Assembly: GCF_002007205.1 (NCBI RefSeq)
Contig: NZ_LAZS01000012.1
Coordinates: forward strand, 310,001-374,000
Length of the DNA stretch: 64,000 nt
Origin: Ensifer adhaerens
GTDB lineage: Bacteria > Pseudomonadota > Alphaproteobacteria > Rhizobiales > Rhizobiaceae
Direction of reading: 5' to 3'
Shown here: in pieces, positions 53,748 through 63,394 of the stretch
Layout of the letters: every line of letters begins with the position of its first letter
Numbering within the stretch: the first letter of the stretch is position 1
Notes under the pieces: model-generated
Told to the model about the DNA's origin: nothing
Database searches by the model: none
The model's input: the letters and a program-made list of their open reading frames with translations, nothing else
Position numbers and translations under genes: made by a program

Positions 53748-53825
53748 TATTTTGTAACTTTTTGTCTTGTTCTTTGTCGATGTTTTGGTACCGTGTGGCC
53801 TTCCATGGTTTCGGGAGGTCGTTTC

Positions 53826-56276
53826 ATGGCGCAGGAATTTCCAACGCAGGCACAGGTCGTCATCGTCGGTGGCGGCATCATCGGTTGTTCGGTCGCCTAT
53901 CATCTGACCAAGCTCGGCTGGACCGATGTCGTTCTCCTGGAGCAGGGGCAGCTCAGCGGCGGCACCACCTGGCACGCCGCCGGTCTCGTCGGCCAGTTGC
54001 GCAGCCACGCCAACATGACGGGTCTCATCAAGTACTCGACCAAGCTCTACAGCGAGTTGGAGTCTGAGACCGGTCTTGCCACCGGCTGGAAGAATTGCGG
54101 TTCGCTTTCGGTTGCGCGCACCGAGGACCGCATGACCGTGCTGAAACGCACGGCGGCCTCGGCCCGCGCTCAAGGTGTCGAGATCGAGGTGATCTCGCCG
54201 AAGCAAGCCCAGGATCTCTGGCCGGTGATGGCCATCGACGACCTTGTCGGCGCCGTCTGGCTGCCGGGCGACGGCAAGGCCAATCCGACGGACCTGACGC
54301 AATCGCTCGCAAAGGGTGCGCGCAACCGCGGCGCCCGTGTCATCGAACGCGTCCGGGTCACCGGCATTTCGACGAAGAACGGCGCCGTCACCGGGGTGGA
54401 AACCGACCGCGGGGTGATTGCCGCCGAGATCGTCGTCAACTGCGCCGGGCAATGGGCACGCAAGGTCGGCCAGATGTGCGGCGTCACCGTGCCGCTGCAC
54501 TCGGCCGAGCATATGTATATCGTCACCGGCCGGATCGAAGGCGTGCATCCCGACCTGCCGGTCATGCGCGATCCCGACGGCTACATCTATTTCAAGGAGG
54601 AAGTCGGCGGTCTGGTCATGGGCGGCTTCGAGCCGGAGGCGAAGCCCTGGGGCATGGCCGGCATTCCCGATGATTTCGAATTCGCCCTGTTGCCTGATGA
54701 TTGGGACCAGTTCGAGATCCTGATGCACAATGCGCTGCAGCGCGTGCCGCAGCTTGCGACGTCAGAAGTGAAGAAGTTCTACAACGGCCCGGAAAGTTTT
54801 ACCCCCGACAACAATTTCATTCTCGGCGAGGCGCCTGAACTGAAGAACTTCTTTGTCGGCGCCGGCTTCAATTCCATGGGCATCGCGAGCGCCGGCGGGG
54901 CAGGGCGGGCACTGGCCGAGTGGATCGTCAACCGCGCGCCGACCATGGATCTCTGGCCCGTCGATATCCGTCGCTTTGCCGGCTTCAACAACAATCCGCG
55001 CTGGCTGCACGACCGCGTCAAGGAAACGCTCGGGCTGCACTATGCCATGCCCTGGCCAAACCGGGAGCTCGACACGGCACGGCCTTTCCGCCGTTCGCCC
55101 CTCTACGATCGCCTTGCCGCAAAGGGTGCGTGCTTCGGCTCCAAAATGGGATGGGAGCGCGCCAACTGGTTTGCCGCGGAAGGCCAGAGCCCGGTGACGG
55201 AGTACGCCTTCGGCCGGCAGAACTGGTACGACGCGGTCAAGCGCGAGATGAAGGCGACGCGCGAGGCTGCCGGCATCTTCGACCAGACCTCGTTTGCCAA
55301 GCTGCTCGTCCAGGGACGGGATGCCGCAGCGGCGCTCAATCGCATCTGCGCTGCGCAGATCGACGTGGCGGTCGGTCGTTCCGTCTATACCGGCCTGCTG
55401 AACGAACGGGGCGGCTATGAGACCGATCTGACAGTCATGCGTCTTGCTGCCGACCGTTTCCTGCTCATTACCGGATCGGCGCAGGCCGTGCACGACGCCG
55501 ATTGGATCCGCAAGAACATTGCAGCCGACACCCATGTGACGCTGACCGACGTAACCTCGGCCTACTCGGTCCTGGCTCTGATGGGGCCACGGTCGCGCGA
55601 CATTCTCTCCGGGCTCACCTCGGCCGACATATCGAATGACGGGTTTCCCTTCGGGACGATCCGGGAGATCGACGTTGGTTATGCCACAACCTTCGCCAAC
55701 CGCATGACCTATGTTGGGGAACTCGGCTGGGAACTGATCGTACCGACCGAATTCGCAGTCGGCGTCTACGAAGCGCTGCACGAGGCCGGCCGGGAATTCG
55801 GACTGACGGACTGCGGATATTATGCGCTCGAGGCCCTCAGGCTCGAGAAAGGCTACCGTGCCTGGAGCCGTGAGCTGACCCCTGATGTTACGCCCTACGA
55901 GGCCGGTCTCGCCTTCGCAGTCGCTCTCGACAAACCTGGCGGCTTCATCGGCCGCCGCGCGCTTGACGAGGCGAAGGCAAAGGGAACGCCGTCGCGCCGC
56001 ATCGTGCAGTTCACGGTGGACGATCCGGACCCGATGCTCTGGGGCGGCGAGTTGATCCTTCGCGATGGGAAACCTGTCGGAGAAGTACGCTCGGCCGCCT
56101 ATGGTCATACACTCGGGTGCTCGGTCGCGCTGGCGCTCATCGAACATCCGCCTGGAGTCGACAAGGCCTTCGTGGAGACCGGCCGCTTCGAGGTTGAACT
56201 TGCGGGCAAGCGCTTCGCGGTTACTGCACAGTTGAAGGCGGCCTATGATCCGAAGGGCCTGAGGACGAAGGCGTAG
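53826..56276 (+). CDS. Dimethylglycine/sarcosine dehydrogenase-like flavoprotein with GcvT domain
   Basis: An 816-residue enzyme with an N-terminal FAD-dependent amine dehydrogenase (residues 1 to about 385; GGGIIGCSVAYHLTKLG) and a C-terminal folate-binding GcvT module (about 430-816; AAGIFDQTSFAKLLVQG, VGYATTFANRMTYVGELGWE). H50 in TTWHAAGLVGQLR is at the place where dimethylglycine oxidase and dehydrogenase link FAD covalently. Enzymes of this plan strip methyl groups from dimethylglycine or sarcosine and pass formaldehyde to tetrahydrofolate. GGGAGG lies seven bases before the ATG at 53826; the longer frame from 53793 is less likely. With the DeoR and GbdR-like regulators next to it, methylated glycine is the best substrate guess. 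Confidence 0.87.
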   Translation: MAQEFPTQAQVVIVGGGIIGCSVAYHLTKLGWTDVVLLEQGQLSGGTTWHAAGLVGQLRSHANMTGLIKYSTKLYSELESETGLATGWKNCGSLSVARTEDRMTVLKRTAASARAQGVEIEVISPKQAQDLWPVMAIDDLVGAVWLPGDGKANPTDLTQSLAKGARNRGARVIERVRVTGISTKNGAVTGVETDRGVIAAEIVVNCAGQWARKVGQMCGVTVPLHSAEHMYIVTGRIEGVHPDLPVMRDPDGYIYFKEEVGGLVMGGFEPEAKPWGMAGIPDDFEFALLPDDWDQFEILMHNALQRVPQLATSEVKKFYNGPESFTPDNNFILGEAPELKNFFVGAGFNSMGIASAGGAGRALAEWIVNRAPTMDLWPVDIRRFAGFNNNPRWLHDRVKETLGLHYAMPWPNRELDTARPFRRSPLYDRLAAKGACFGSKMGWERANWFAAEGQSPVTEYAFGRQNWYDAVKREMKATREAAGIFDQTSFAKLLVQGRDAAAALNRICAAQIDVAVGRSVYTGLLNERGGYETDLTVMRLAADRFLLITGSAQAVHDADWIRKNIAADTHVTLTDVTSAYSVLALMGPRSRDILSGLTSADISNDGFPFGTIREIDVGYATTFANRMTYVGELGWELIVPTEFAVGVYEALHEAGREFGLTDCGYYALEALRLEKGYRAWSRELTPDVTPYEAGLAFAVALDKPGGFIGRRALDEAKAKGTPSRRIVQFTVDDPDPMLWGGELILRDGKPVGEVRSAAYGHTLGCSVALALIEHPPGVDKAFVETGRFEVELAGKRFAVTAQLKAAYDPKGLRTKA

Positions 56277-56715: not shown

Positions 56716-59061
56716 CTACCCATATCGCCGGCTGCCGTTTACGTCTTTGCCGATGATCTCCCGGATGATGGTCAAGGTTTCCTTCGCCGCCTCCTTGGGC
56801 GCAAGCGCGGTATCGGCGACGTTGCTGACCAGTTTCGTCATGTCGTGATCGATGTCCTTCTCAGCCCAACGCTTGCCCTTGGCAACAGTAATATAGACCG
56901 AGTAGGCGTGATGCATTGTTCCAGGCCGTTCGCCGATGATGTGGAGAATTCCCCGGAAACTGTTGGGATCGGCGTCCCCAAAAAGCATCTCGCCGATCCT
57001 GTAGCCGGCCCGCACCCTGCCGCTCGTCACAAGAATATTCTTGTCGCTCATAGTGACGCCGGCGTCGCCGAGCAGACTGCGCATTGCCTCCAGATACGGA
57101 TGAAGATGGCCTTCGTCCATGATCGCCTTGGCGTTCAGACCGTCTGAAATGACGATCTGGCCCTTGGGCATGGCGCCTTTCCAGGATGCCCTTATCCGCT
57201 CGATTTCCTTGACCGAATCGGGGCTCAGCGTTTCGCCGGTGGTAGGGTGGGCGATGTAGTCGTTTCGGTCCTTGGAGAGGGTGCGGACCGGGACGACGCC
57301 TGGCACAGTGGCGACAAACTCCGGTGTGAGTTCGGCCCATAGAGACTGCTTGGCGTCGTCATACAGACCCCGCACTTTCGTCGCGAGCGCAGGGTTGAGA
57401 TCCCAGATCTTCTCTCCGTGGCCCGTCGCCAGGTCGACGCCTCTCGCTTCGACCGCCTTCATCATCTGCCTGCCTTCGGCGTAAACAGCTTCCTTGGCTC
57501 GCTTGTCACCTTTGGCGAGGCGGTATTGGTAGTACACCCAGAGGGGATCTCCGTAATTCGATGTATAACTGTTGTCGTTGCCGACGATGCCGATGCGCTT
57601 GTAAAACTCCCACATTGCGTCGTTGACCTTGAAGCCAAATTTCTCCCTGATGCGCACGTGGTCCTGAAATGCGGTCGTCAGATAGCTCAACATCGGGTCA
57701 TTCTTGGTGGGCAAAGCGATCAGATAAGCAGGATTGGCCGGCATGATCTGGTCCTGGCACCAATCGAGATCGTCCAGGCTGACCGTCATGTGCAGAGTTG
57801 TGCAGATATCAAGGCCGATGGTCAGCCCATGAAGCTTGCCCATGACCATGTCTTCGAGGCAGCATCGGACGAGCTGTTCGCGGCTCTTGAAGACCTCCGG
57901 TCCGATGAAGCCGGCAACGTCGTTGACATGGAGCCATGCTCCCTTGGGCTGCACCTTTGCAAGCTCGATCCCGGTCGCCCTACTGAACCCATATTTTCGA
58001 GACTCGAGCACCATCATGTCGACGCCATTGGCCACGCCGTTGGTGAATTCCGAGCCCTGCCCGGTCTCGAAGTAGAGGCCATACCTTTCCCCTGCTTTCG
58101 CGCTTGCATACTTCAGGATCTTCTCGTTGGTGATGTCGAAGATCTTGTTGCAGTCATCGGTTCCGGCGAGGCTCTGGAACACGGTCGCAACCGTTCCCGG
58201 GAAACGTTCGCTCACCTCGCCCTGGACATCGATATGGGCAAGCACACACCAGGGAATGACGTCGACCAGCTTGAAGGTATCCACGATGTCCTTGAGCGCT
58301 CGCTCCACCGTGACGACGCTGTTGACCGTGCTGTCCACCGGGTTGGTACCGATGACGATGTCACCGGTTGCATAGGAAAACGCATCGAAGACCTGCCACA
58401 TGATGTCCTCGGGGTGATCCGTTGGCGAATTCGGCTGGATGCGTGCGCCCATGTATCCTTTGGCTCCCAGCTTGGTGCCAGGCATGACGTTGAAGATTTT
58501 CTGGCTGACGGCGATCAGCTCGTCGTTGCTCATCAGTTTTGGCACACAGCCGATGGTATCGCTCGTCAGGCCGTACATGACGCCTTTGATCTCTTCTTCC
58601 GATCGGGTGAGAAGAAATTCCTTCAGCTGACCCATTGTCCAATCTTTCAGCTTTTCTTGCTGCGCCTGGTCGGTCGTCTGCCAGATCAATCGCTGCAGAT
58701 CGTCCTCAAACAGCGGGTGCCGATCCAGGTCTGCGATCTTTGTGTTCGCCAGAAGTGCCCTCGCATTGCGCCGCGTCGTGTCGTCGTGCGCACCCACTCC
58801 GATGGCCTGATCCCCCTCCTTGAAGTCGTTTGCCGCTCCAAGAACCTGCTGATAGGTTTTCTGGTCAAAGCCGCCCTTGACCCTGCTCAGATACGCAAAC
58901 ACGTCTTCCCTTGGCCCGATTTCCTCTATTGTTAGGGCTGCTTCGCCAACCGCCGCTTTCGCCGTTTGACCATAGCTTGCAAGCGCTGCAGTCCCTGCGA
59001 TTACCAGGAGATCTCGTCTGTAAAGTCCGGCATGCTGGTTGGAGAAGAAGCCTTCACTCAT
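56716..59061 (-). CDS. Fused ethanolamine ammonia-lyase (EutB-EutC) with Tat-like signal peptide
   Basis: A 781-residue single chain joining both subunits of adenosylcobalamin-dependent ethanolamine ammonia-lyase, which splits ethanolamine to acetaldehyde and ammonia. Residues about 50-495 are EutB: substrate-site residues line up as R207 and Q209 (ARIQPNSPTDHPED), N240 (GTNPVDS) and E332 (YFETGQG), shifted by 45-47 from the E. coli numbering I recall. Residues about 510-781 are EutC (VISDGLNAKAIMDEG, TSGRVRAGYRIGEMLFG, IIGERPGT). The first 36 residues carry YRRDLLVIAGTAALASYG ending TAKA, a convincing twin-arginine signal, unexpected in a cytoplasmic B12 enzyme. AAAGGA lies seven bases before the ATG. 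No EutA, EutH, EutR or acetaldehyde dehydrogenase is adjacent. Confidence 0.9.
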   Translation of the reverse strand: MSEGFFSNQHAGLYRRDLLVIAGTAALASYGQTAKAAVGEAALTIEEIGPREDVFAYLSRVKGGFDQKTYQQVLGAANDFKEGDQAIGVGAHDDTTRRNARALLANTKIADLDRHPLFEDDLQRLIWQTTDQAQQEKLKDWTMGQLKEFLLTRSEEEIKGVMYGLTSDTIGCVPKLMSNDELIAVSQKIFNVMPGTKLGAKGYMGARIQPNSPTDHPEDIMWQVFDAFSYATGDIVIGTNPVDSTVNSVVTVERALKDIVDTFKLVDVIPWCVLAHIDVQGEVSERFPGTVATVFQSLAGTDDCNKIFDITNEKILKYASAKAGERYGLYFETGQGSEFTNGVANGVDMMVLESRKYGFSRATGIELAKVQPKGAWLHVNDVAGFIGPEVFKSREQLVRCCLEDMVMGKLHGLTIGLDICTTLHMTVSLDDLDWCQDQIMPANPAYLIALPTKNDPMLSYLTTAFQDHVRIREKFGFKVNDAMWEFYKRIGIVGNDNSYTSNYGDPLWVYYQYRLAKGDKRAKEAVYAEGRQMMKAVEARGVDLATGHGEKIWDLNPALATKVRGLYDDAKQSLWAELTPEFVATVPGVVPVRTLSKDRNDYIAHPTTGETLSPDSVKEIERIRASWKGAMPKGQIVISDGLNAKAIMDEGHLHPYLEAMRSLLGDAGVTMSDKNILVTSGRVRAGYRIGEMLFGDADPNSFRGILHIIGERPGTMHHAYSVYITVAKGKRWAEKDIDHDMTKLVSNVADTALAPKEAAKETLTIIREIIGKDVNGSRRYG

Positions 59062-59322
59062 GGCTGAATCCTTTCTCAGAATGTCGATAACGGGCTCCAC
59101 GCGGGCATGGCTGCGTCATCACCGGCCGCCGAGCCATTCATCTCGAAAAGCCCCCGGCGGTGAACAGCTGCGCGCTATGGGTCCGCAGCAAGCCAGTCGG
59201 GCCGTTCTCGATCACGACGAGACGGACGTCATGACCTTGTCCGTCGTCAACGAGCGAAACGCTCCGTTGAGCAATCCTCCTGCCGGCAGGTCTAGGCGAA
59301 GAGTAGGTCGTGCACGGGTGAA

Positions 59323-60901: not shown

Positions 60902-61873
60902 ATGGCGGGTAATTCCTATGAAACCGGGCGGCTGAACCTGCCGTTCGTCGGCATCTGCACCTTCGGCAAATATCCCTACCAGCCGGACTGGGATGCGATC
61001 GATGCGGATGTGGCGATTCTCGGCGCGCCGTTTGACTGCGGCACGCAATGGCGCGCCGGCACCCGCTTCGGGCCGCGGGCGATCCGCGAGGCATCGACGC
61101 TGTTTTCCTTCGGTCATGGGGGCGCCTACGATCACGAGGACGACGTCACCTACCTGCCGAGCGACAAGGTTTCGATCGTCGATATCGGCGATGCCGACAT
61201 CATCCACACCGACACGATGAAGAGCCACGCCAACATCGAATTCGGCGTGCGCAAGATCCTGGCCGCCGGTGCACTGCCGGTGGTTCTCGGTGGCGATCAC
61301 TCCGTCAACATTCCCTGCATCAACGCGTTCGACGAGGACTGCGCCAGGAATGGCCCGATCCATATCGTCCAGATCGACGCGCATCTCGACTTCGTCGACG
61401 AGCGGCACGGGGTTCGCTACGGCCACGGCAATCCCATGCGCCGGGCCGCCGAGAAGCCCTATGTCTCCGGGCTCTCGCAATTCGGCATCCGCAACGTTTC
61501 CTCGACTGCCAAGGAAGGCTACGAGGATGCGCGGTCAATGGGCTCGGATATCCTGTCCGTGCGCCAGATCCGCGCGCTCGGCACGGAGGCGGTCGCCGCC
61601 CGCGTGCCGGCCGGAGCCCGCTACTACGTCACGATCGACATCGACGGCTTCGATCCCTCGATTGCGCCGGGTACCGGCACGCCGTCCCATGGCGGCTTCA
61701 TCTATTACGAGGTGCTGGAGATCCTCTCGATACTCGCCAGGCGCGGCACCATCGTCGGCATCGACCTGGTCGAGGTTGCGCCGGACTACGACCACTCAGG
61801 CTCGACCTCGATCCTCGCCGCCCAGGTGCTGATGAACCTCATCGGCCGCGTCATGCACGCCAAGAGAGGCTGA
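60902..61873 (+). CDS. Agmatinase/ureohydrolase-family protein
   Basis: A 323-residue binuclear manganese hydrolase of the arginase fold. All metal ligands are visible: H133 (GGDHS), D159, H161 and D163 (DAHLD) and D246 and D248 (DIDGFDPS). The family hydrolyses guanidino groups and releases urea; members act on agmatine, guanidinobutyrate, guanidinopropionate or formiminoglutamate. GAGGAG lies six bases before the ATG. It leads an operon with two SDR genes and a deacetylase-like hydrolase, which is not the usual polyamine context, so the substrate is left open. The gene symbol speB was not used for that reason. Confidence 0.88.
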   Translation: MAGNSYETGRLNLPFVGICTFGKYPYQPDWDAIDADVAILGAPFDCGTQWRAGTRFGPRAIREASTLFSFGHGGAYDHEDDVTYLPSDKVSIVDIGDADIIHTDTMKSHANIEFGVRKILAAGALPVVLGGDHSVNIPCINAFDEDCARNGPIHIVQIDAHLDFVDERHGVRYGHGNPMRRAAEKPYVSGLSQFGIRNVSSTAKEGYEDARSMGSDILSVRQIRALGTEAVAARVPAGARYYVTIDIDGFDPSIAPGTGTPSHGGFIYYEVLEILSILARRGTIVGIDLVEVAPDYDHSGSTSILAAQVLMNLIGRVMHAKRG

Positions 61874-61877
61874 GACC

Positions 61878-62660
61878 ATGGGTAGTATCGCTTACGATTT
61901 TTCCGGCGAACACGTGCTGGTGACGGGCGCCAGCCGCGGCATCGGCCGCGCGGTCGCGGAGGGTTTCGCCGCCGCCGGGGCAGAGGTCACCATTCTTTCC
62001 TCCGGCCGTGGAATTCACGAGGCCGCCCGCGAGATGTCTGAACGCTTCGGCCGCAGGATCGCGGCGCTCGAATGCGATATCACCGACAGTGCTGCCGTTA
62101 AGGCGACACTCGCGCCGCTTGGTCGCATCGATGTGCTCGTCAACAATGCCGGGCTCGAGCGCATTACGCCGGTGACCGACGAAGACGACAGCGTCGAAGA
62201 CACGTTCCGACGCATCACCGACATCAACACCAACGGCACCTTCTATGTGACCCGCCATGCGTTGCCGCATATGCGCGCGGGCGCCCGCATCGTCGTCACC
62301 GCATCAATCTGGAGCCGGGTCGCCGTGCCCGAGTTCTCCGCCTATATCGCCTCCAAGCACGCCAATCTCGGTTTTACCCGCGTGATGGCCAAGGAACTCG
62401 GGGCGAAGGGCATCCGTGTCAACGCCGTCTGCCCCGGTTGGGTGCGCACCGAGGCGGCAATGCTGTCACTCAAGAACATGTCGCTGCGCACCGGCCGCCG
62501 CGAACAGGACCTGCTGGACGAGATCGTGGGAGCCCAGGTTCTGCCGGGCCTCTTGGAACCGGAAGACCTCGCTGCACCCTATCTCTTCCTCGCCTCCGAT
62601 GGTGCCAAGGACATGACGGGACAGGCGCTGATGCTCGACCGCGGCGAGGTGATGGCATGA
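61878..62660 (+). CDS. Short-chain dehydrogenase/reductase (first of pair)
   Basis: A 260-residue SDR: cofactor loop VTGASRGIGRAVAEG, LVNNAGLE, catalytic serine in VTASIWSRV, YIASKHANLGFTRVM with Tyr and Lys, VCPGWVRTEA. Strand 2 ends LSSGRG rather than in an acidic residue, which leans towards NADP. It begins four bases after the ureohydrolase stop and overlaps the next SDR by four bases. The reaction is unknown, presumably an alcohol/ketone step on the same substrate. Confidence 0.88.
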   Translation: MGSIAYDFSGEHVLVTGASRGIGRAVAEGFAAAGAEVTILSSGRGIHEAAREMSERFGRRIAALECDITDSAAVKATLAPLGRIDVLVNNAGLERITPVTDEDDSVEDTFRRITDINTNGTFYVTRHALPHMRAGARIVVTASIWSRVAVPEFSAYIASKHANLGFTRVMAKELGAKGIRVNAVCPGWVRTEAAMLSLKNMSLRTGRREQDLLDEIVGAQVLPGLLEPEDLAAPYLFLASDGAKDMTGQALMLDRGEVMA

Positions 62661-63394
62661 GCGCGCGCGTTCTTGTCACCGGCGCCTATCGCGGCATCGG
62701 CGCGGCCTGCGCACTGGCGTTTGCAGCGACGGGGGCTCGGGTTGCGCTTGCCGATATCCGCCGACCGGACGAGACCGCCGATGCCGCGACACGGGCAGGG
62801 GCCGCCGAAACCCTGACGCTTGCCTGCGATGTCTCGGACGAAGGTGCCGTTGCCGCGGTCGGCGAGGCGGTGCGGCAGCGGTTCGGCGGGCTCGACGTCG
62901 TGGTCCACTGCGCTGGTGTCATCCATGAAGCGCCGCTGCTGGAAACCCCCGTCGCCGATTTCGACCGGGTGATTGCCATCAATCTGCGCGGCAGCTTCCT
63001 TGTCGGCAAGATGGCGCTGGGTTTGATGGAGGGAACGGCCGAGCAGCCGGCGCGGCTGATCATGATCGCCTCCGACATGGCCCATTACGGCCGTGAGACC
63101 TTCTCGCCCTATGTCGCCTCCAAGCATGGCGTGCTCGGGCTTGTCCGCTCCTGGGCAAAGGAATTTGCGCCGCGCGTGCTGGTCAATGCGATCTGCCCCG
63201 GTCCGATCGATACCGAGATGCTTGGGGCGGCGAACATGAGCGCGGAATGGCGTGCCAGGGAACTGGCGATCCCGCTTGCGCGCTTCGGCAAGCCCGAGGA
63301 GATCGGCGAACTCGCACGGTTTCTCGCCGGCTCCGGCGGGCGCTACTTCACCGGCCAGGGGATCGGCAGCAACGGCGGGAGCATCATGCCATGA
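62657..63394 (+). CDS. Short-chain dehydrogenase/reductase (second of pair)
   Basis: A 245-residue SDR with VTGAYRGIGAACALA, an acidic strand-2 end (LADIRRP, favouring NAD), VVHCAGV, serine in MIASDMAHYG, YVASKHGVLGLV and ICPGPIDTEM, ending GQGIGSNGGSIMP. The start ATG overlaps the first SDR stop (ATGA); its own stop overlaps the next start in the same way. Two SDRs with different cofactor leanings in one operon suggest consecutive redox steps or an epimerisation through a keto intermediate. Confidence 0.88.
   Translation: MSARVLVTGAYRGIGAACALAFAATGARVALADIRRPDETADAATRAGAAETLTLACDVSDEGAVAAVGEAVRQRFGGLDVVVHCAGVIHEAPLLETPVADFDRVIAINLRGSFLVGKMALGLMEGTAEQPARLIMIASDMAHYGRETFSPYVASKHGVLGLVRSWAKEFAPRVLVNAICPGPIDTEMLGAANMSAEWRARELAIPLARFGKPEEIGELARFLAGSGGRYFTGQGIGSNGGSIMP

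Follow-up and report, generated by a model that had tools for sequence, protein, structure and literature searches.

A fused ethanolamine ammonia-lyase with a predicted twin-arginine signal peptide in Ensifer adhaerens and its signal-bearing relatives

Introduction

Ethanolamine ammonia-lyase is a radical B12 enzyme known in cytoplasmic and shell-enclosed forms. The window analyzed here, a stretch of 64,000 nucleotides from Ensifer adhaerens (contig NZ_LAZS01000012.1, positions 310,001 to 374,000), contains a gene that raises the question of whether such an enzyme may also act outside the cytoplasm. In the original prediction, made from the letters of the DNA, the gene was read as a fusion of EutB and EutC behind a Tat-type signal peptide, and export of the folded, cofactor-loaded enzyme was envisaged. 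In this work the gene, its leader, its relatives, and its neighborhood were compared computationally with other EutB and EutC proteins.

Results

The Fused Gene

The gene is read from 59061 to 56716 on the minus strand, with an ATG at 59061, a stop codon at 56718-56716, and no internal stop; the location originally given, 56716..59061, was thus correct, and translation yielded 781 residues (Table 1). That EutB and EutC form one chain of this length was confirmed by Pfam, in which EutB (PF06751) matched residues 68-500 (E 2e-141, 472 bits, cut-off 25) and EutC (PF05985) residues 544-776 (E 7.5e-31, 107.7 bits, cut-off 25.8). The NCBIfam EutB model PRK15067 was passed with 639 bits against a cut-off of 554, whereas the EutC equivalog model gave 79.5 bits against a cut-off of 230, and the EutC part is therefore divergent. 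Ribosome-binding-like leaders comparable to that of the window gene, of the form AGAAAGGA..ATG, are present in many relatives. When the protein was used as a query against its own 6.87 Mb genome, the single match was the gene itself. The fold predicted by AlphaFold2 matches EutB plus EutC of the E. coli enzyme (3abo); the model used (mean pLDDT 71.1; four other models 55.9-62.3) has low confidence at the active-site loops and served for the overall fold only. The E. coli enzyme consists of two chains, whereas the window protein is one chain with a putative N-terminal export signal.

Table 1. Features of the fused gene and their positions in the window.
Feature	Position	Strand	Basis or remark
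Fused EutB-EutC coding sequence	56716..59061	minus	781 aa + stop; translation, Pfam, NCBIfam
Predicted Tat signal peptide, residues 1-36, cut after A-K-A	58954..59061	minus	sequence; kept in relatives
Twin-arginine codons R15 R16	59014..59019	minus	sole invariant columns before position 52 in alignment A1, 31 rows
EutB (catalytic large subunit) domain, residues 68-500	57562..58860	minus	
EutB-EutC linker, residues 501-543	57433..57561	minus	interval between Pfam matches
EutC (small subunit) domain, residues 544-776	56734..57432	minus	
R207 codon (E. coli EutB R160)	58441..58443	minus	alignment
Q209 codon (E. coli EutB Q162)	58435..58437	minus	alignment
N240 codon (E. coli EutB N193)	58342..58344	minus	alignment
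E332 codon (E. coli EutB E287)	58066..58068	minus	alignment
D418 codon (E. coli EutB D362)	57808..57810	minus	alignment
AAAGGA ribosome-binding-like site, 7 bases 5' of ATG	59069..59074	minus	read from sequence

Active Site

Residues R207, Q209, N240, and E332 of the window protein align with R160, Q162, N193, and E287 of E. coli EutB, and D418 with D362, all of which we take to be active-site positions. These five positions were identical in 40 of 40 rows of a first alignment and, together with F329, in all 111 rows (97 distinct) of a later one, so the predicted retention of R207, Q209, N240, and E332 was borne out. Glu287 of E. coli EutB is treated in PMC4413051. Identity to E. coli EutB was about 30% over the structural alignment, and in the signal-bearing proteins E. 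coli Y365 is replaced by T, S, or A and Q405 by L or M.

Leader of the Window Protein and Its Relatives

The N-terminus of the window protein reads MSEGFFSNQHAGLYRRDLLVIAGTAALASYGQTAKA followed, after the predicted cut, by AV; it holds a twin arginine at residues 15-16 (Y-R-R-D-L-L), a moderately hydrophobic core, and an A-K-A site, the cleavage site being set by eye and regular expression without a trained predictor. The 40 first-round relatives came mostly from Rhizobiales, plus delta-proteobacterial MAGs and one Verrucomicrobia MAG, and 39 of them carry a twin arginine ahead of a hydrophobic stretch; the leader of the remaining one, L031, is lost to a contig end. In alignment A1, made of the window protein and 30 of these 40 loci (31 rows), R15 and R16 were the only invariant columns before E52. 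None of 27 split EutBs carries an RR-x-hydrophobic motif in the stretch from the likely start to the domain. Of 385 genomes searched in the class, 28 had a match, and the split EutBs come from 27 of these, the 28th being the own genome. In two of the split EutBs, L064 and L066, such a motif lies 45-66 residues upstream, ahead of the likely start. Nor was a twin-arginine signal present in any of 7 fused signal-less relatives. The Tat-type features claimed for the leader are thus present, and they exceed a chance resemblance, the RR being kept in relatives and missing from the N-termini of the split EutBs examined. The host also has TatC (234.4 bits, E 3.4e-69).

Three further observations concern the fused genes themselves. 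The Tat-type signal of L022:8001-10352 includes a lipobox-like LAGC and may therefore belong to a lipoprotein. In Rhizobium sp. BK251, copies of the fused gene with identical first 75 residues sit on two contigs (L030 and L041). In another genome of the same genus as the window, the match to the fused gene (G697:C2:978756-979338) is split in two, covers only a C-terminal portion, and looks like a remnant.

Distribution and Export Routes

Genome surveys with A1, which were samples whose counts are silent on unsampled groups, found near-full-length fused proteins in 12 of 394 genomes of the own family (1549-1593 bits); the next scores there were a remnant at 283 bits and split EutBs at 248 bits or less. 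Matches above 1100 bits were obtained in 18/395 genomes in the phylum of genome G780 and in 29/277 in its class, two surveys that overlap. In the own phylum the count was 1/299, the own genome, and in the phylum of the Verrucomicrobia MAG 1/194, that MAG.

Fused, signal-bearing EutBC proteins, for which a search of databases had been suggested along with the original prediction, numbered 97 distinct sequences in this analysis. Many of those from Desulfobacterota have a plain Sec-type leader, for example MKKIIGILGLFFLMIFSLPSMGGA in L096. Under a rule of our own (RR motif, basic residues, and mean Kyte-Doolittle value over 12 residues), with thresholds set after viewing the data and assignment by motif, hydrophobicity, and eye instead of a trained predictor, 48 leaders were Tat-type, 46 Sec-type, and 3 unclear. 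Two of the unclear leaders have a hydrophobic core with few basic residues and one lies near a contig end; L109, flagged for RR in one reading of the leaders, is Sec-like under the rule. Mean core hydrophobicity was 2.03 in Tat-type and 2.56 in Sec-type leaders, a difference without independent value because the hydrophobicity limit belongs to the rule. A loose A/V/S-x-A site was found in 39 of the 48 Tat-type and 43 of the 46 Sec-type leaders, and was missing in 9 and 3, respectively.

Sec cargo crosses the membrane unfolded. Since roughly one in two signal-bearing proteins carries a Sec-type instead of a Tat-type leader, cofactor-loaded export is not a rule of the family, and the folded, cofactor-loaded passage originally envisaged is not required. 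Export is well supported by this comparison of leaders and seems to be conserved across the signal-bearing proteins, its route not being so; a change between Tat and Sec makes most sense if selection acts on export.

The cysteine content was also considered as an independent mark of export and was dropped. Past residue 52 the mean number of cysteines was 7.3 for the Tat-type (48) and Sec-type (46) proteins and 14.6 in the 7 fused signal-less ones; E. coli EutB plus EutC has 17, and a signal-less fusion of Methylocystis 7. In the EutB region the signal-bearing proteins differed from the 7 fused signal-less proteins (p 0.0016), but not from 36 split EutBs (p 0.17).

History of Fusion and Signal

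In a careful tree of the EutB region (66 rows), the 42 sampled signal-bearing rows fell on one side of a 100/100 branch, their stem, with a length of 1.63 changes per column. They adjoin the fused signal-less protein L122 (100/100), and the split EutBs and the Methylocystis fusion lie on the opposite side. A quick tree of 127 rows likewise grouped all 97 signal-bearing proteins behind a single branch (SH-aLRT 100), and the 7 fused signal-less proteins behind another (SH-aLRT 99). The latter, six from the class of G780 (L170-L175) plus L122, start at or just ahead of the EutB domain and have no hydrophobic leader. Judging from the placement of these proteins in the trees, fusion probably came earlier than the signal in the signal-bearing line.

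To explain the Tat-type leaders, the quick tree needs two or more changes on branches with good support, and in a topology test on the 66-row tree neither a single Tat clade (p-AU 0.191) nor a single Sec clade (p-AU 0.302) was rejected. The Rhizobiales rows are nested among delta-proteobacterial Tat rows in the 66-row tree, which suggests that the gene was transferred into Rhizobiales.

Methylocystis sp. MJC1 (L074:5896-8091) has a separate EutB-EutC fusion without a signal, with A at the position of the D362 aspartate and an arylsulfatase gene two genes away. It clusters with split EutBs in the trees; its branch is long and its placement unsure.

Eut Partners and Gene Neighborhoods

The lack of eutH, originally noted for the window, held for the whole genome, where EutH was not found (0/1 genome, controls positive). 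No real EutA was found in the whole genome either; a lone 26.6-bit Pfam match to EutA was rejected, the protein scoring 56.5 bits as FtsA and 28.9 as EutA. Neither a cobalamin riboswitch nor any other Rfam family matched the window, L071, or L023 at the gathering threshold.

The window gene is an orphan, the genes around it being unrelated. Those at 53793-56276 and 60902-63394, which code for two short-chain dehydrogenases, a DAO/GCV_T oxidoreductase, and an arginase-family protein, show no obvious connection with ethanolamine use; DeoR, AraC-type, and LysR regulators are further neighbors. The neighborhoods of 60 loci and the window were compared by tblastn (E 1e-8, query loci counted), the loci being the 40 of the first round, L071, L072, L073, L076, 14 with longer flanks, and 2 of genome G1284, with pairs from the same species or genome (L071/L072; L030/L041) counted apart. 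AdhP-like proteins were found at 19 loci (one weak, at 27%), GH94 proteins at 16, phosphoketolase at 14, and acetate kinase at 5. A Gcw_chp-type exported protein occurred at 10 loci, L031 among them; identity was 22-29% at six of these, and one copy lay on the opposite strand. Aldehyde:ferredoxin oxidoreductase was found at 9 loci, including the Tat locus L023 (24%, 6.4 kb away). A FecCD importer was found at 5 loci; among the 16 loci with longer flanks, made up of the 14 (two of them Tat-type) and the 2 of G1284, five have genes for FecCD and Peripla_BP_2 importers downstream. None of these eight proteins, counting a conserved one of about 265 residues, was found around the window gene by tblastn.

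This last protein (about 265-282 residues, probably membrane-spanning) is encoded downstream of Sec-type EutBC at L126:10622-11419, with homologs at L129, L130, L131, L132, L135, L136, L168, and L169 (9 loci with L126); the copy at L126 matches nothing in Pfam. An exported protein of the Gcw_chp family, encoded at L126:7297-8094 and in homologs ahead of several Sec-type EutBC genes, looks like an outer-membrane barrel and is listed in Pfam as of 'unknown function'. Near Tat-type EutBC, proteins with DUF3300 and DUF2950 occur in the flanks of L011, L024, L027, and L037, both Rhizobiales and delta-proteobacterial.

In the annotation of pSymA of S. meliloti ml56, the genes around 'eutB' are CBS, adhP, phosphoketolase, histidine phosphatase, glycosyl transferase, and a glucoamylase family protein. 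AdhP, phosphoketolase, and acetate kinase are cytoplasmic enzymes, and such neighbors in Rhizobiales could equally serve a lyase in the cytoplasm. They would suit a reading in which the N-terminus does not serve export and the enzyme remains cytoplasmic or is anchored to the inner side of the membrane by an uncleaved N-terminal helix. The same holds for the absence of even a loose A/V/S-x-A site from 12 of the 94 leaders assigned to Tat or Sec. We consider this reading improbable, as the two arginines are fixed in an otherwise variable leader, a switch between signal types makes most sense if export is under selection, and L022 has the lipobox-like LAGC in its Tat signal. The importer genes downstream of some members might instead point to an exported protein that is no longer a lyase and binds or stores corrinoid in the periplasm. 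Such a role is very improbable given the invariant catalytic positions, and the aldehyde:ferredoxin oxidoreductase or AdhP near a number of members fits a lyase that makes aldehyde.

Discussion

The fusion of EutB and EutC was already known, and in the literature covered (open-licence articles) export was not found. The single chain departs from the two-subunit arrangement of E. coli, but a fusion had been printed for Pelobacter carbinolicus in 2012, and signal-less fusions exist. According to that article, P. carbinolicus has duplicate eutBC genes, described as 'an unusual fusion', without eutA; their neighbors were called periplasmic substrate-binding and multitransmembrane proteins, and cobalamin genes lie between the two copies (PMC3543383). 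The term 'twin-arginine' is absent from its main text, where the signal-peptide passages concern other proteins. Genome G1284, presumably P. carbinolicus, has two EutBC copies about 26 kb apart, both signal-bearing fusions with Sec-type leaders, and the A1 survey gave no EutB match in it beyond these two. By reading, a solute-binding-like protein, another exported protein, a membrane protein, and cobalamin-type genes lie beside the copies. The window gene thus resembles eutBC1 and eutBC2 of P. carbinolicus in the fusion and the lack of eutA, the genome taken for that species having two signal-bearing fusions, and differs in its Tat-type leader from their Sec-type leader and large cobalamin gene cluster. 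The EutBC proteins of Desulfobacterota (L170-L175, L122) and Methylocystis (L074) have the same fusion without a signal peptide, and E. coli EutB shares about 30% identity with the window protein, in whose host neither EutH nor EutA was found. In the open-licence articles covered, no report of the export, location, or activity of a signal-bearing EutBC was found.

Taken together, the gene probably codes for a fused ethanolamine ammonia-lyase that is exported over the inner membrane by Tat and acts in the periplasm. The single chain would be exported by Tat, the fusion letting EutC travel on one signal. Once in the periplasm, the enzyme would convert ethanolamine to acetaldehyde and ammonia by the usual radical reaction, set off by an adenosylcobalamin-type cofactor. 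The two products would diffuse or be taken inward, and inside the cell the AdhP alcohol dehydrogenase, aldehyde:ferredoxin oxidoreductase, and acetate kinase encoded near a number of relatives could use the aldehyde. A periplasmic lyase would make EutH dispensable, and the data fit such a lack of need for a permease. Members with a Sec-type leader would, because of it, bind the cofactor after export, and Tat-type members could do so before or after. The sequence itself shows the fusion, the signal, and the kept catalytic residues, and neither EutH nor EutA was found; export as such, cleavage, substrate, and the site of cofactor loading are inferred. A precedent for Tat export is offered by the reductive dehalogenases (RdhA), described in PMC10624902 as corrinoid enzymes exported by Tat. 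RdhA belongs to another enzyme class, with a Co(I) centre acting on organohalides (PMC10624902), and no relatedness was seen in the tests made here. Several points speak against the proposed export and lyase function, namely the leaders without a loose A/V/S-x-A site, the orphan state of the window gene, the Y365 and Q405 differences, the poor confidence of the active-site model, and the cysteine content of the EutB region, which is unsupportive of export.

A related reading keeps the exported radical B12 lyase but assigns it another amino alcohol as substrate, placing it outside ethanolamine use in rhizobia. The low identity to E. coli EutB, the replacements at Y365 and Q405, and the long stem branch agree with this, as does the proposal by the authors that the two eutBC copies of P. 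carbinolicus have distinct substrates (PMC3543383). However, R160, Q162, N193, E287, and D362 are identical throughout the 111 rows, and the P. carbinolicus-like genome has only signal-bearing EutBs, yet strains of that species were reported in the same article to grow on ethanolamine or choline. Another substrate therefore appears unlikely, and ethanolamine stays the preferred one for the exported lyase.

For the family as a whole, we see about even chances that the signal-bearing proteins are a clade of adenosylcobalamin-dependent radical lyases outside the cytoplasm, for which the periplasm would replace the Eut microcompartment and shield the cytosol from acetaldehyde production, and which, at least in the Sec-exported members, would take their cofactor there from corrinoid in transit.

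Export of the fused lyase appears to characterize a whole clade, with relatives in bacteria of soil and sediment. In labelled S. meliloti records the protein is named plain EutB, which hides both the fusion and the predicted export. If the proposal is true, a radical B12 enzyme would gain an exported branch, in nodule bacteria including Sinorhizobium meliloti and in sediment-type anaerobes. The acquisition of cofactor by an adenosylcobalamin enzyme outside the cytoplasm, the endurance of the enzyme without the EutA reactivase, and the use of ethanolamine by bacteria without EutH would then become testable questions.
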